From NCBI GenBank assembly GCA_024697785.1, contig JAILEU010000025.1:1-40362 (forward strand): a stretch of DNA of 40,362 bases. Direction: 5' to 3'. The position numbers and the translations under genes were made by a program. Positions 15,428 through 39,700 of this stretch are shown here, piece after piece; position 1 is the stretch's first letter; each line of letters begins with the position of its first letter. The notes below the pieces were generated by a model, which ran no database searches, was not told the DNA's origin, and worked only from the letters and a program-made list of their open reading frames with translations. This stretch comes from Bacteroidaceae bacterium (GTDB lineage Bacteria; Bacteroidota; Bacteroidia; Bacteroidales; Bacteroidaceae).

Positions 15428-17977
15428 GTGGAAAAGAAAACGTACACCTACGACGAGGCCTATCAGGCCACCCTTGCATACTTCGACGGCGACGAACTGG
15501 CCGCCAAGGTATGGGTCAACAAGTATGCCATGAAAGACTCTTTCGGCAACATCTACGAGCAAACACCCGCCGACATGCACCGCCGCATCGCCAGCGAGAT
15601 AGCCCGCATCGAACAGCGCTACCCCAACCCTATGAGCGCTAACGAGATCTTCAGCCTGCTCGACCACTTCCGCTACATTGTGCCTCAAGGCAGCCCTATG
15701 ACCGGCATCGGCAACGACTTCCAGATTGCCTCGCTTTCCAACTGCTTTGTCATCGGCATGGATGGCGACGCCGACAGCTATGGTGCCATCATCCGCATCG
15801 ACGAGGAACAAGTGCAACTGATGAAACGTCGCGGCGGCGTCGGCCACGACCTTTCGCATATCCGTCCGAAGGGCTCACCCGTCAAGAACTCCGCCCTCAC
15901 CTCCACCGGTCTCGTGCCCTTCATGGAGCGCTATTCGAATAGCACGCGCGAGGTGGCACAGGATGGCCGTCGCGGCGCGCTGATGCTTACCGTCTCCATC
16001 AAGCACCCCGACAGCGAGGCCTTCATCGACGCAAAGATGACCGAGGGCAAGGTCACCGGCGCCAACGTCTCCGTCAAGATGGACGATGCCTTCATGCAGG
16101 CTGCCGTCGAGGGCAAGCCTTACGTACAGCAGTACCCCATCGACAGCGATACCCCCCTCTACTCCAAGGAAATCAATGCCGGCGAGCTTTGGCATAAGAT
16201 TATCCATAACGCCTGGCAGTCCGCCGAACCTGGCGTCCTTTTCTGGGACACCATCCTGCGCGAGAGCATCCCCGACTGCTACGCCGACCTCGGCTTCCGC
16301 ACCGTCAGCACTAACCCCTGCGGCGAGATTCCCCTCTGCCCTTACGACAGCTGCCGCCTGCTGGCCATCAACCTCTATTCCTACGTACGCAACCCCTTCA
16401 CCCCCGAGGCCACCTTCGACTACGACCTTCTGCGCACGCACGTCGCCAAGGCTCAGCGCATCATGGACGACATCATCGACCTCGAGATTGAGAAAATCCA
16501 GAAGATACAGGATAAGATCGAAAGCGACCCCGAGAGCGAGGAGATCAAGTTCGCCGAGCGCAACCTGTGGAAGAAAATCATGGACAAGAGCACCAAGGGG
16601 CGCCGTACGGGCGTGGGCATCACCGCCGAAGGCGACATGATAGCCGCCATGGGGCTGTGCTACGGCACCGACGAGGCCACCGACTTCGCCGTCAGCGTAC
16701 AGCAGACCGTAGCTCTCAGCGCCTACGGCAGCTCCGTCGTCATGGCCCGCGAGCGCGGTGCCTTCGCCATCTACGACGCCGGCCGCGAAAAGGACAACCC
16801 CTTCATCCGCCGCATCGCCGAGGCCGACCCGAAGCTCTATGCCGACATGGTCCGCTACGGCCGACGCAACATCGCCTGCCTCACCATCGCCCCCACCGGC
16901 ACCGTCAGCATCCTCACCCAGACCACCAGCGGCATTGAACCCGTCTTCATGCCCGTCTATAAGCGCCGCCGCAAAGTCAACAAGGACGACCCCGGAGCAC
17001 ACGTGGACTATATCGACGAGACGGGCGACTGCTTCGAGGAGTTCATCGTCTATCACCATAAGTTCCTCACATGGATGCGCGTCAACGGCTACGACACCAC
17101 CCGCCGCTACACGCAGGACGAAATCAACGACCTCCTCGCCCGTTCGCCCTACCACCATGCCTCTGCCAACGACATCGACTGGGTGAAGAAAGTGCAGATG
17201 CAGGGCCGCATCCAGAAATGGGTTGACCACAGCATCAGCGTCACCATCAACCTCCCCGCCGACACCACTGAGGAGCTCGTCAACGAGCTCTACATCGAAG
17301 CCTGGCGTCAGGGCTGCAAAGGCTGCACCGTCTATCGCGACGGCTGCCGCAGCGGTGTCCTCGTCGCCACCGACGTGAAGAAGGACGACAAAGCCAAGCG
17401 CTGCGAGCCCTGCGACTGCCGTCAACCCGTCGTCGAAGTCCGCCCGCGCGTCCTCAAGTGCGACGTCGTCCGCTTCCAGAACAACCGCGAGAAGTGGGTG
17501 GCCTTCGTCGGCCTCCTCGACGGACGGCCCTACGAAATCTTCACCGGCCTGCAGGACGACGACGAGGGCATCCTTCTGCCCAAGAGTGTCACCGAGGGCG
17601 TTATCATCAAGAACATCGACGACAACGGCGTAAAGCACTACGACTTCCAGTTCACCAACAAGCGCGGCTACAAGACCACCATCGAGGGACTCTCCGAGAA
17701 GTTCAACAAGGAGTTCTGGAACTACGCCAAGCTCATCAGCGGCGTGCTCCGCTACCGCATGCCCATTGACCAGGTAATCAAGATGGTCGGCAGCCTTGAG
17801 ATGGACAACGAAACCATCAACACCTGGAAGGTTGGCGTGGAACGAGCGCTGAAGAAGTACATCGTCGATGGCACCGCCGTCAAGGACCAGGCTTGCCCCT
17901 CGTGCGGCGAGCAGACACTCGTCTATGAGGAAGGCTGCCTCCATTGCACCAACTGCGGCTACTCACGCTGCGGATAG
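15428..17977 (+). CDS. nrdJ: Adenosylcobalamin-dependent (class II) ribonucleoside-diphosphate reductase
   Basis: The 849-residue enzyme reduces ribonucleotides to deoxyribonucleotides using adenosylcobalamin to make the radical, so it needs neither oxygen nor a separate radical subunit. The GTG start at 15428 gives the expected N-terminus (MEKKTYTYDEAY). The ten-stranded barrel core shows NPCGEIPL with the active-site Cys at about 298 and GIEPVFMP in the radical-site region. A C-terminal extension holds CxxC pairs (QACPSCGEQTLVYEEG, then CTNCG at about 832-845), a zinc-finger-like tail common in this subfamily. It lies between dnaA and folB, with its own promoter. A hairpin array begins three bases after its stop codon. 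Confidence 0.95.
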   Translation: MEKKTYTYDEAYQATLAYFDGDELAAKVWVNKYAMKDSFGNIYEQTPADMHRRIASEIARIEQRYPNPMSANEIFSLLDHFRYIVPQGSPMTGIGNDFQIASLSNCFVIGMDGDADSYGAIIRIDEEQVQLMKRRGGVGHDLSHIRPKGSPVKNSALTSTGLVPFMERYSNSTREVAQDGRRGALMLTVSIKHPDSEAFIDAKMTEGKVTGANVSVKMDDAFMQAAVEGKPYVQQYPIDSDTPLYSKEINAGELWHKIIHNAWQSAEPGVLFWDTILRESIPDCYADLGFRTVSTNPCGEIPLCPYDSCRLLAINLYSYVRNPFTPEATFDYDLLRTHVAKAQRIMDDIIDLEIEKIQKIQDKIESDPESEEIKFAERNLWKKIMDKSTKGRRTGVGITAEGDMIAAMGLCYGTDEATDFAVSVQQTVALSAYGSSVVMARERGAFAIYDAGREKDNPFIRRIAEADPKLYADMVRYGRRNIACLTIAPTGTVSILTQTTSGIEPVFMPVYKRRRKVNKDDPGAHVDYIDETGDCFEEFIVYHHKFLTWMRVNGYDTTRRYTQDEINDLLARSPYHHASANDIDWVKKVQMQGRIQKWVDHSISVTINLPADTTEELVNELYIEAWRQGCKGCTVYRDGCRSGVLVATDVKKDDKAKRCEPCDCRQPVVEVRPRVLKCDVVRFQNNREKWVAFVGLLDGRPYEIFTGLQDDDEGILLPKSVTEGVIIKNIDDNGVKHYDFQFTNKRGYKTTIEGLSEKFNKEFWNYAKLISGVLRYRMPIDQVIKMVGSLEMDNETINTWKVGVERALKKYIVDGTAVKDQACPSCGEQTLVYEEGCLHCTNCGYSRCG

Positions 17978-17980
17978 TCG

Positions 17981-18157
17981 TTTTTGCTGCGCAAAAAGGT
18001 TTAGTTTTTTTGCTCGCAAAAAAAGTTTAATGATTTTGCATGGCAAAATCGGTTTAGTGTTTTTGTTGGAACAAAAAAGGTTTAGTTAAACCGCCGACGA
18101 AGCCAATCTAAACCTTGCCGAAGGCAAAATAAACTGCCGCCGAAGTCGGCGCTAAAC
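17981..18157 (+). repeat. GTTTAG-linked hairpin array A (between nrdJ and folB)
   Basis: Short hairpins alternate with a GTTTA-containing spacer. Left-arm stems: TTTTTGC/GCAAAAA (17981-17997), TTTTTTTGC/GCAAAAAAA (18005-18024), ATTTTGC/GCAAAAT (18033-18049) and TTTTTGTT/AACAAAAA (18060-18077). Left spacers: GGTTTAG at 17998 and 18051, GTTTAAT at 18025. The centre is GGTTTAGTTAAACC at 18079-18092. After it the spacer is inverted (CTAAACC at 18108, ATAAAC at 18129, CTAAAC at 18152) and hairpins are GC-rich: TTGCC/GGCAA (18115-18127) and CGCCG/CGGCG (18138-18151). Left and right spacers can pair in nested order. The array fills the whole gap between the two genes. Function is unknown. Confidence 0.85.
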
Positions 18158-18164
18158 GATTAAA

Positions 18165-18566
18165 ATGATAGAACTGAACAACATGGCCTTTTATGCCTAC
18201 CACGGGGTGCTTCCTGAGGAGCGCACCGTGGGCGGGCATTATACAGTCAGTCTGCGTCTGTCTGCAGACATCAGGGAAGCTTGCCGCACCGATGACCTTA
18301 CGGACACCATCGACTACGCTGCCGTCTGCGCTATCGTCAAGTCCGAGATGGAACAGCCCGCCAACCTCATCGAGCATGTCGCCGCCCGCATCGGCCACAG
18401 CCTGCTTGACGCCTTCCCTACCCTAAACAGCGTCGAGGTCCGCCTCTGCAAACTCCATCCCCCCGTCCCTGGCATGGAAATTGCCGAAGCCTGCTACACC
18501 GACACCTTCGTCCGCCCTACCAGCCCGCCACCTTTTAGCCTCGACCCGCTGATGGGCATTTTTTGA
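18165..18566 (+). CDS. folB: Dihydroneopterin aldolase
   Basis: The enzyme converts dihydroneopterin to 6-hydroxymethyl-dihydropterin and glycolaldehyde in folate synthesis. The 133-residue product matches the small FolB fold: IELNNMAFYAYHGVLPEER at the N-terminus with the conserved Tyr-His-Gly, DTIDYAAVCAIV in the middle, and VRLCKLHPPVPG holding the active-site Lys near residue 95. A Pro-rich 15-residue tail after the core is unusual but short. The start is only 8 bases after the last spacer of hairpin array A, so the array should be part of its leader if it is transcribed from the nrdJ promoter. The next gene is convergent. Confidence 0.93.
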   Translation: MIELNNMAFYAYHGVLPEERTVGGHYTVSLRLSADIREACRTDDLTDTIDYAAVCAIVKSEMEQPANLIEHVAARIGHSLLDAFPTLNSVEVRLCKLHPPVPGMEIAEACYTDTFVRPTSPPPFSLDPLMGIF

Positions 18567-25367: not shown

Positions 25368-25420
25368 GTAGGAGTGTAGGAGTGCAGGAGTTCGGGAGTG
25401 CAGGAGTGCAGGAGTGCAGA
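25368..25420 (+). repeat. Microsatellite of GGAGTGCA units
   Basis: About six imperfect copies of an 8-9-base unit (GGAGTGTA, GGAGTGCA, GGAGTTCG) begin 6 bases after the CotH stop codon. The rest of the 163-base gap to the next gene shows nothing I can identify; no good promoter was found. Confidence 0.8.
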
Positions 25421-29541: not shown

Positions 29542-29614
29542 TACACCCTCAGGGGCTCGAACCCTGGACACCCTGATTAAGAGTCAGGTGCTCTACCAAC
29601 TGAGCTAAGGGTGC
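29542..29614 (-). tRNA. tRNA-Lys, anticodon CTT
   Basis: The minus strand folds as a 73-base cloverleaf: acceptor GCACCCT/AGGGTGT (first pair G-U), D arm GCTC...GAGC, anticodon stem CCTGA/TCAGG with loop CTCTTAA (anticodon CTT), and T arm CAGGG-TTCGAGC-CCCTG. The discriminator base is A and CCA is not encoded. It reads AAG lysine codons. Confidence 0.96.
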
Positions 29615-36571: not shown

Positions 36572-36612
36572 AGCTTTATTTGTTGATTTTTGGTTTATTT
36601 TATTGGTTTATA

Positions 36613-36770
36613 GGTTTAGTTCCGGCTGCGCCGGAGGTTTAGTTCGGCCTTTGGCCGAGGTTTAGTTCCGGATATGCCGGAGGTTTATAAACCGATTCTG
36701 TCACGCATAATCATTAAACTTTTTTTGTGAAACATAAAAAAATAAACTTTTTGCAGAGCAAAAACTAAAC
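36613..36770 (-). repeat. GTTTAG-linked hairpin array B (between ileS and the DksA-like gene)
   Basis: Read on the minus strand from the ileS stop: GTTTAG (complement of 36765-36770), stem TTTTTGC/GCAAAAA, GTTTAT (complement of 36742-36747), an A/T stem of 7 bp, GTTTAA (complement of 36714-36719), a degenerate stem, then the central palindrome GGTTTATAAACC (36682-36693). After it come three GC-rich hairpins, each followed by CTAAACC. On the plus strand these read GGTTTAG at 36613, 36636 and 36659 plus GGTTTAT at 36682, an exact 23-base period. Stems: TCCGGC/GCCGGA, TCGGCC/GGCCGA, TCCGG/CCGGA. The remaining bases to the DksA-like ATG hold two more TAAACC copies. Confidence 0.85.
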
Positions 36771-36777
36771 TATTTCT

Positions 36778-39700
36778 TCAATTTTTACATACTTCTGCTT
36801 TGACGGTGAAGTCGTCGAAGGCGAGTTCGTCGGCGGTGTCGGGCAGGGTGTTGCAAATGTCGAGGGTGTCGGCCAGGACCTGTCCGCAGATGTAGTCGTG
36901 ATGGGCTTGGACGGAGGCATCGAGGCGTGCGTCGGACGTCAGGCGGATGCTGACGCGGTCGCTGATCTCGAAGCCGCTGGCCTTGCGGATGTTCTGGATT
37001 TTGCTCACCAGTTCGCGTGCCAGTCCTTCGAGTCGCAGCTCGTCGGTGACGACGATGTCGAGGGCGACGGTCAGCACGCCCTCGTTGGCCACCACCCAGC
37101 CGGGGATGTCCTCGCTGTAGATTTCCACCTCGTCGGCCTCAATCTCTGCCAGCTGCGTGGTGCCGGGGAGCGGCAGGGCGATGTGCCCGTCGGCCTCGAG
37201 CTGGGCTATCTGCGTCTGCGTCATCGACGCGACGGCGACGGCCACCTGCTTCATCAGGGGGCCGAACTTCTTGCCCAGCACCTTGAAGTTGCACTTCACC
37301 TTCTTCACCAGGATGCCCTCGGCGCCCTCGACGAAGTCTATTTCCTTGATGTTCACCTCGTTCATGATGAGCGGGGCGACGGCTTCGAGGCGGGCCTTCA
37401 TCTCGCCCGTAGCGGGAATCATCATCTTCTGCAGCGGCTGCTTGACGATGATGTTCACCTTCTTGCGCAGGGCGAGGCCCATCGACGACACCTTCTGTGC
37501 CAGCTCCATGCGGAGCTCGAGTTCGCGGTCGATGACGCTCTCGTCGGCTTCGGGGAAGCGGGCGAGGTGTACGCTGCAGACGTCGTCGCGTCCCGTGACG
37601 CGGACGAGGTCGGTGTAGAGCTTGTCGGCATAGAACGGGGCGATGGGTGCCATCAGTCGGGCGACGGTCTCGAGGCAGACGTAGAGCGTCTGGTAGGCGG
37701 CCAGCTTATCGGCGGTGTATCCGGCGCCCCAGAAGCGTTTGCGGCAGAGGCGTACGTACCAGTTCGAGAGGTTGTCGGTGACGAAGTCGCTGATGAGTCG
37801 TCCCGCCTTCGTCGGCTCGTAGTCGGCGTAGCAGGCATCGACGCTGCGGATGAGCGTGTTGAGTTCGCTCAGTATCCAGCGGTCGATCTCGGGTCGCTGG
37901 CTGACGGGCACCTCGGCCTCGGCATAGCGGAAGCCGTCGAGGTTGGCGTAGGGGGCGAAGAAGCGGTAGGTGTTGTGGAGGGTGCCGAAGAACTTCGAGA
38001 TGACGTCGGTGACGCCCTTCTCGTCGAACTTCAGGTTGTCCCAGGGGCTTGAGTTGGTGATCATGTACCACCTGACGGCGTCGGCGCCGTACTTGCCGAT
38101 GGCGCCGAAGGGGTCGACGGCGTTGCCCAGTCGTTTGGACATCTTGGCGCCGTTCTTGTCGAGCACGAGGCCGTTGCTGATGACGGCCTTGTAGGCGACG
38201 GAGTGTTTCACCATCGTGCTGATGGCGTGTAGGGTGAAGAACCATCCTCGCGTCTGGTCGACACCTTCGGCGATGAAGTCGGCGGGATAGACGGCGCCGC
38301 TGTCAACGAGCTCCTTGTTCTCGAAGGGGTAGTGCATCTGTGCGAAGGGCATAGCGCCGCTGTCGAACCACACGTCGATGAGGTCCGTCTCGCGCTTCAT
38401 GGGTTTGCCGGTGGGCGAGCAGAGGATGATGTCATCGACGTAGGGGCGGTGGAGGTCGATTTTGTCGTAGTTCTCGGCCGTATAGACGCCCGGCACGAAG
38501 CCCGCCTTCTTGTAGGGGTTCTCGGTCATGAAGCCGGCGGCGACGCTGCGCTCAACCTCGGTGTAGAGTTCTTCGACGCTGCCGATGCAGCGCTCTTCGC
38601 GCGTCTCGGCGTTGCGCCAGATGGGCAGCGGCGTGCCCCAGTAGCGGCTGCGGCTCAGGTTCCAGTCGTTCAGGTTCTCGAGCCATTTGCCGAAGCGGCC
38701 GGTGCCGGTGCTCTCGGGCTTCCAGAGGATGGTCTTGTTCAGCTCCATCATCTCGTCCTTGCGGGCGGTGCTGCGGATGAACCAGCTGTCGAGGGGGTAG
38801 TAGAGCACGGGCTTGTCGGTGCGCCAGCAATGGGGGTAGTTGTGGATGTGCTTCTCGATTTTGAAGGCGGTGCCGGCCTGCTTCATCTCCATGCAGAGGA
38901 CGACGTTGAGGTCCTCGGTCTTTGCCAGCTCCTTCTCGTCCATACCGGCGTACTTGGGGTCGTAGGCGTTTTTCACGAAGTCGCCGCTGTGGGCCCAGTA
39001 GCCGTCGTGCACGCAGAGGCTGACGAAGGTCTCGTCCATATCCTCGCGCAGGAAATACTTGCCGGTGAAATCGACCATCGGGCGTGTGTCGCCGGCCTTG
39101 TCGATGACAAACAGGGCGGGCACTCCGGCGTCCTTGGCGACCTTGGCGTCGTCGGCGCCGAAGGTGGGGGCGATGTGTACGATGCCCGTGCCGTCCTCGG
39201 TGGTGACGTAGTCGCCCGGGATGACGCGGAAGGCGTCGGCCTCCCTGTCGATGACGCGTCCGTCCACCAGTTCGCAGGGCTTGACCCAGGGGAAGAGCTG
39301 CTCGTAGCGCAGCCCCACGAGGTCGGAGCCCTTGCAGCGGCCGACCACCTCGTACTCATCCTCGCTCTTGAAGTAGGCCGAGAGGCGTGCCTCAGCCAGG
39401 ATGTAGATGGCCTCCTGCTTCGTATAGGGGTTCTGTGCCTTTACGGCGACGTAGTCGATATTCGGCCCCACGCAGAGCGCGGTGTTCGAGGGCAGCGTCC
39501 AGGGCGTGGTTGTCCAAGCCAGGATGAAGACGGGCAGGGATGAGGGCTGAGGGATGAGGGATGAGGGCTGAGGGATGAGGGATGAGGAATGAGGGTTGAG
39601 GGATGAGGGCAGAAGGCGGAACTGCGCCGTGACGGTGGTGTCCTTGACGTCGCGGTAGCAGCCGGGCTGGTTGAGCTCGTGGCTGCTCAGGCCGGTGCCC

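Follow-up and report, generated by a model that had tools for sequence, protein, structure and literature searches.

The window, by which we mean the whole analysed stretch of 40,362 nucleotides, carries a ribonucleotide reductase gene recognised with Pfam (15428-17977, plus strand), which was called nrdJ in an earlier sequence-only reading of this DNA. Downstream on the same strand lies folB, encoding dihydroneopterin aldolase (Pfam FolB, 18165-18566). The gap between the nrdJ stop at 17977 and the folB start at 18165 measures 187 bp and is nearly filled, much as that reading had it, by an inverted hairpin array with the A/T-rich hairpins first, here named array A (17981-18157, plus strand).

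The left part of array A, read on the plus strand, consists of hairpin h1 (17981-17997, TTTTTGC-TGC-GCAAAAA), linker GGTTTAG (17998-18004), h2 (18005-18024), linker GTTTAA (18025-18030), h3 (18031-18050, TGATTTTGC-ATG-GCAAAATC), a second GGTTTAG (18051-18057) and an extra A/T hairpin (18058-18078) that by eye comes closest to h2 of the C128 copy. The direction flips at a central palindrome, GGTTTAGTTAAACC (18079-18092, belonging to neither strand), with the linkers GGTTTAG at 18079 and TTAAACC at 18086. On the right, now on the minus strand, follow a degraded G/C-rich hairpin, GCCGACGAAGCCAAT (18093-18107), linker CTAAACC (18108-18114), the hairpin TTGCC-GAA-GGCAA with a GNA triloop on the TAAACC strand (18115-18128), linker ATAAAC (18129-18134, with TAAAC from 18130), a further G/C hairpin (18137-18151) and a final CTAAAC (18152-18157). 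The layout reported earlier, with four A/T-rich hairpins on GTTTA linkers, the central GGTTTAGTTAAACC and then hairpins with the complementary linker, was recovered, and all four nested linker pairs named at that time are complementary. Of the right-side hairpins, those at 18115-18128 and 18137-18151 pair well and the one at 18093-18107 pairs poorly.

A second array of the same kind, array B (36592-36775, minus strand), lies between a class I tRNA synthetase gene, which we presume to be ileS, and a dksA/traR-type zinc-finger gene. Pairs of GTTTAG spaced 14-30 nt apart occur three times in the window, once in array A and twice in array B, against 0.04 expected. GGTTTAG alone is mildly enriched (7 against 2.94, with 5 of 100 shuffles reaching 7).

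The repeat family in the host genome

Array A belongs to a repeat family and is no private leader of nrdJ-folB. The window's own genome (G000; 3.24 Mb in 201 contigs, 84.6% complete) contained 45 matches to the pattern GGTTTAGN{12,26}GGTTTAG, and the reversed control gave 0. BLAST with one canonical copy and its flanks returned at least 51 matches in the same genome (40 of 167 candidates scored), some of those at the weak end spanning the A/T-rich flank only. At 34 sites examined, arrays A and B included, 130 hairpins with at least 4 contiguous Watson-Crick pairs were identified; they were distributed over 33 sites, the remaining one being a hairpin-free octamer run.

The basic unit is GGTTTA(G/T/A)T followed by a hairpin whose stem is mostly 5-8 bp long and whose loop usually has 3 nt. 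Units are joined head to tail with linker-to-linker periods of mostly 23 and 21 nt, and most sites flip once at a central palindrome, which gives a mirrored block of about 165-215 bp. The left side of a canonical copy is formed by h1 (TTTTGC..GCAAAA), h2 (T6G..CA6) and h3 (GATTTTGC..GCAAAATC), followed by GGTTTATAAACC; on the right there are usually two to four hairpins, of the TCCGGC, TTGCC or TCGGC type, and the copy closes with CTAAACC(T/C)ATAAACC. Array B is such a canonical copy in reverse, and array A is a divergent one with one A/T hairpin more. As candidate terminal inverted repeats of a MITE, AATGGTTTA...TAAACCATT was seen by eye at many array ends, but the linker is inverted all along an array, and clean ends are lacking in array A. 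One linker-plus-hairpin unit (21 columns) and some substitutions separate two similar arrays, C173 and C179, both at contig starts and probably paralogous. The idea that the arrays are seated in 7/8-bp periodic repeats was dropped, as such flanks were present at 9 of 34 array sites against 15 of 58 background sites.

In the C6 copy (L067, 3681-3861) all three A/T hairpins have the two-base centre GC-TA-GC and are full palindromes; no general trend to such shared centres was seen across the array hairpins. A longer palindromic module was also observed in or beside several arrays (L066, L072, L078 and L082; in G009, L239 and L232). Its start, CGTTTTCGTTAAGCC, has 5 matches in the G000 stretches and 1 in G009, and its end, GGCATGGCGAGAAAACG, has 3 and 1.

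Array placement is mostly behind genes. With simple ORF calls, 32 of the 34 sites (octamer run included) could be scored for gene orientation: 24 were co-directional, 7 convergent and 1 divergent. Among 116 array-free gene pairs nearby, 19 had a divergent gap, against this 1 in 32 (P 0.02-0.04). Called genes lay within 75 nt on both sides at 23 of the 32 sites.

Distribution and empty sites

A covariance-model search for further copies, as the earlier reading had advised, found them in relatives. Of 251 genomes of the taxonomic family, 4 had matches to the unit model (R1); all belong to one genus, with at least 28 matches in G000, at least 4 in each of G003 and G009 and at least 2 in G012, where up to 29 candidates per genome were scored under strict filters. 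A strict linker pattern was positive in the same four genomes among 61 relatives. In a collection of 84,980 species, which may omit the window's own record, a three-linker pattern gave 35 stretches, the only true relatives being L123 and L127. Both come from one uncultured Bacteroidales genome, the same as G003, and the second unit of L127 has only 3 contiguous pairs. Five other stretches with 4-5 bp in both units (L108, L113, L117, L119 and L136) were judged unrelated, as they consist of near-identical repeated units; L119 (Bacillus sp. FJAT-49711), for example, is a tandem repeat of a CCCGTTCGGG-type hairpin with GGTTTA between and nearly a single stem sequence. With 2 of 35 stretches of this kind in the genome-contig scan, a wide distribution was dropped. 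A plasmid or phage origin likewise gained no support: one canonical block had no match in plasmid and phage sequence at E 1e-5, and of the 9 stretches that the pattern picked up in viral contigs none had at least 4 bp in both units.

G009 is the nearest relative of G000 by two proteins. In the searched part of G009 both flanks were matched for 7 of the 34 sites, and five of these seven resolvable sites were empty, namely those on contigs C53, C132 and C167 and those of arrays A and B, which argues that array A is probably a lineage-specific insertion. The C175 site, before aspartokinase, holds a hairpin array in G000 and G009 alike, so the copies are not all recent, and the seventh site has an octamer linker run alone in both. 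The nrdJ-folB junction was without an array in G009, G003, G017 and G012, and the aspartokinase junction in G003, G017 and G012. A structured leader dedicated to nrdJ-folB, one of three guesses in the sequence-only reading, gained no support and was rejected, given this absence from the same junction in four relatives. The guess of a non-autonomous mobile element fits best of the three, given the many copies, the near-identical ones beside different genes and the empty sites. In one such pair, C129 and C164, the near-identity spans the block plus about 25 bp to either side, and the called neighbour genes differ in size and orientation. By eye no target-site duplication was visible, the gaps at the five empty G009 sites being too diverged to show one.

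The nrdJ-folB gap of G003 and G017 is occupied by a different repeat of (GTTTAAC)n type. Repeats in which (GTTTAAC)n runs into GAACACGTCC form a second family dispersed between genes, found in L066, L067, L069, L077, L078, L086, L091 and L095 and, in G009, in L232, L244 and L248. Exact matches to GTTTAACGAACACG numbered 13 across the G000 stretches (216 kb) and 5 across 787 kb from G009.

Stems, loops and folding

For the analysis of covariation, units were picked by linker and length alone. In 35 distinct 29-nt units 95.2% of 210 cells were paired, covariation reached 0.718 against 0.190 in shuffled units and at most 0.208 when slid, and both sides had changed in 51 cells against 11.1 in shuffles; as the units share descent, such counts are not independent events. 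Two weak measures gave smaller differences in this set: two-sided change at 6 pairs (all 6) where shuffles gave 4.3 (27 of 500 shuffles did as well), and 13 further pair types against 11.0, reached by 58 of 500. A set of 16 further units of 27 nt, two of which are non-hairpin segments by eye, was 83.8% paired with a covariation of 0.405 (0.204 shuffled) and 7 further pair types against 6.4 (233 of 500 shuffles). Under a looser linker rule, at least 5 contiguous pairs were present in 55% of 106 distinct inner segments, compared to 1.9% after shuffling.

Homologous copies of single hairpins gave a different picture. In h1 and h3, with 17 copies each, changes affected 7 of 476 stem positions and 10 of 102 loop positions (P 0.0001 jointly; significant for h1 alone, P 0.31 for h3 alone). 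For their length, C6 and C201 were left out of the h1 count and C6 out of the h3 count; C150 has no h3. None of the 7 stem changes kept its pair; the one scored as compensated is an A opposite a G. In h2, which varies in length and was not counted, the change was matched in C6 and C90A and unmatched in others by eye. Pairing is thus common across units and decays at single loci, and the compensatory changes that the earlier reading had called for were mostly matched between units but unmatched among homologous copies of h1 and h3. In transcript sense the mismatches among 312 pairs were 5 G-U, 1 A-C and 4 other; these 10 are too few, and the rarity of G-U was dropped as a proof of action at the DNA level.

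Loops of 3 nt were found in 46 of 68 distinct hairpins and other lengths in 22. On the TAAACC strand 35 of these 46 loops were (A/G)NA and 19 were GNA, and on the GGTTTA strand 3 of 46 were (A/G)NA, the units being related and not independent. DNA loops of the d(GNA) triloop type are known to be stable (PMC5815330), and such triloops cap the palindromes of Streptomyces telomeres (PMC7205883). With DNA parameters the mean hairpin energies were identical on both strands; strand-specific stability by these parameters was therefore dropped, and the triloop argument rests on the literature. We take the loop bias as a lead for folding of single-stranded DNA, and not as proof. Concerted loops within one array were not supported (P 0.59, stratified by arm).

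Array A folds better than shuffled sequence, a comparison that had also been proposed earlier. Against dinucleotide shuffles the RNA z was -3.51 for 17975-18170, and for 17981-18157 z was -3.32 as RNA and -4.09 as DNA. The ladder of nested linkers put forward in the sequence-only reading came, together with the hairpins, to -36.7 kcal/mol as RNA and -29.4 kcal/mol as DNA, compared to -30.8 and -28.5 kcal/mol for the hairpins alone and -54.6 and -37.3 kcal/mol for the predicted minimum of array A; by eye the DNA minimum includes much of the ladder. At 10 of 33 sites in the host genome all hairpins face the same way, so an array does not in general need its left and right linkers to pair in nested order. 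The ladder can thus form energetically but is not the predicted minimum.

Related elements and candidate mechanisms

In the literature searched, no paper on GGTTTA-linked hairpin arrays was found. The closest described element found is the BrickBuilt MITE of Porphyromonas gingivalis which, as far as the available text describes it, has intergenic tandem 23-nt units with 19 copies in one strain, one consensus unit, and leader and tail segments with ends resembling IS5-family inverted repeats (PMC4596501). From that description both are repeats of Bacteroidales with tandem periods of about 23 nt, intergenic position, limited host range and predicted stem-loops. Unlike BrickBuilt, the GGTTTA arrays are built of separate hairpins with different but matched arms and usually flip mid-array, and the end strings GAGACCTTTGCA and TGCAAAGGTCTC given for BrickBuilt, exact or as 8-nt cores, were found at none of the 34 sites, each taken with 100 nt of flank to either side.

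REP, BIME and REPIN elements, in the portions of the papers available, are short intergenic palindromes with a constant unpaired tag in inverted dimers or clusters, and some families are described as having several stem sequences (PMC3733652, PMC6006769). The GGTTTA family resembles them in its many intergenic palindromic copies. It differs from these accounts in its tag (GGTTTA + A/G/T, compared to GT[AG]G or CGTC), in the many stems within one linker framework, in its long mirrored arrays and in that RAYT was not found in the host genome. Streptomyces telomere palindromes likewise form a row of hairpins with GNA triloops and sheared purine pairing, in the available account (PMC7205883), but they are chromosome ends and the GGTTTA arrays are dispersed, internal and mirrored, so this is a resemblance only. 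We file the family under interspersed palindromic repeats, as a member of neither BrickBuilt nor REP.

The reading that we favour, and consider probable, is that array A represents a non-coding, interspersed DNA repeat of REP/MITE-like kind, specific to its lineage, and not a dedicated RNA regulator of nrdJ-folB. The mirrored block would be copied as a unit into intergenic DNA, and the hairpins would be important in single-stranded DNA, probably that of the TAAACC strand. Either some enzyme that processes single-stranded DNA may read the hairpins, or template-switch copying at inverted repeats may keep the arms matched; effects on host mRNA would be secondary, though possible. A bolder version, which we offer with considerable doubt, is a new class of mobile repeat with a constant GGTTTA linker and interchangeable hairpins, in which an undescribed single-stranded DNA copying process would rewrite stems as matched pairs, with GNA-type DNA triloops on one strand. 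Many stems in one linker framework within one genome mean that the family records the making, matching and loss of hairpins, and nature here provides a way to ask if palindromes persist through selection on their structure or are perfected by a copying process. It points to a further route by which short repeats may spread in Bacteroidales, and it cautions annotators that covarying intergenic hairpins are not necessarily an RNA regulator.

Selection at the RNA level would give some of the same features. Transcribed hairpins behind genes might stabilise the upstream mRNA, much as in the third guess of the sequence-only reading (an mRNA end stabiliser), block exonucleases or attenuate read-through of the operon, and hence be kept; the under-use of divergent, promoter-bearing gaps (1 of 32), the RNA fold (z -3.3), stems that vary less than loops and two terminator-like sites in array A against 0.6 expected agree with this. 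However, the same operon junctions of close relatives do without the array, and arrays occur in both orientations relative to genes. With Rfam 15 at gathering score array A had no family, the sole match in the window being a tRNA (29542-29614), and a low-score isrC match on the other strand, mostly within the upstream gene (E 0.0069; 23.8 bits, where the cut-off is 39), we take for chance. We regard an RNA element as unlikely. Somewhat less doubtful, but still improbable in our judgement, is an origin without any dedicated enzyme, where GGTTTANN octamer runs would grow by slippage, template switching would make or perfect the hairpins and ectopic recombination would spread the blocks, an account that overlaps the template-switch branch of the favoured one. 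Hairpin-free (GGTTTANN)n runs were indeed detected in G000, G003 and G009, and the 16 remaining genus genomes searched, G012 included, had none; the runs thus occur in 3 of the 4 array-bearing genomes and in 0 of the 15 other genus genomes searched, and the C173/C179 difference shows gain or loss at the level of the unit. Yet G012 has arrays and no octamer run, the block shared by C129 and C164 at different loci is not easily explained in this way, and periodic flanks were not above background.

A classical REP/REPIN moved in trans by a RAYT (TnpA-REP) transposase would account for the intergenic position, the palindromes and their inverted pairs, the unpaired tag beside the hairpin and the limited host range. 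The domain of that transposase, Y1_Tnp, was found in array-bearing G012, but also in six genomes without detected arrays (some matches weak), and it was not found in G000 (84.6% complete), G003 or G009, on which ground mobilisation by RAYT was dropped. Moreover, GTAG, GTGG or CGTC stood 0-2 nt 5' of the stem in 0 of 61 distinct units on either strand, and we hold this origin to be very improbable. The telomere-like octamer had suggested synthesis by a reverse transcriptase or a telomerase-like enzyme; this was rejected, since RVT_1 was found in G009 and not in G000 (84.6% complete), G003 or G012.

Two other tandem repeats were noted in the window. The octamer AGGAGTGC is repeated 6.2 times directly after a long ORF (25370-25419), and within the class I tRNA synthetase gene there are 10.6 tandem copies of the heptamer AGGGATG (39536-39609).
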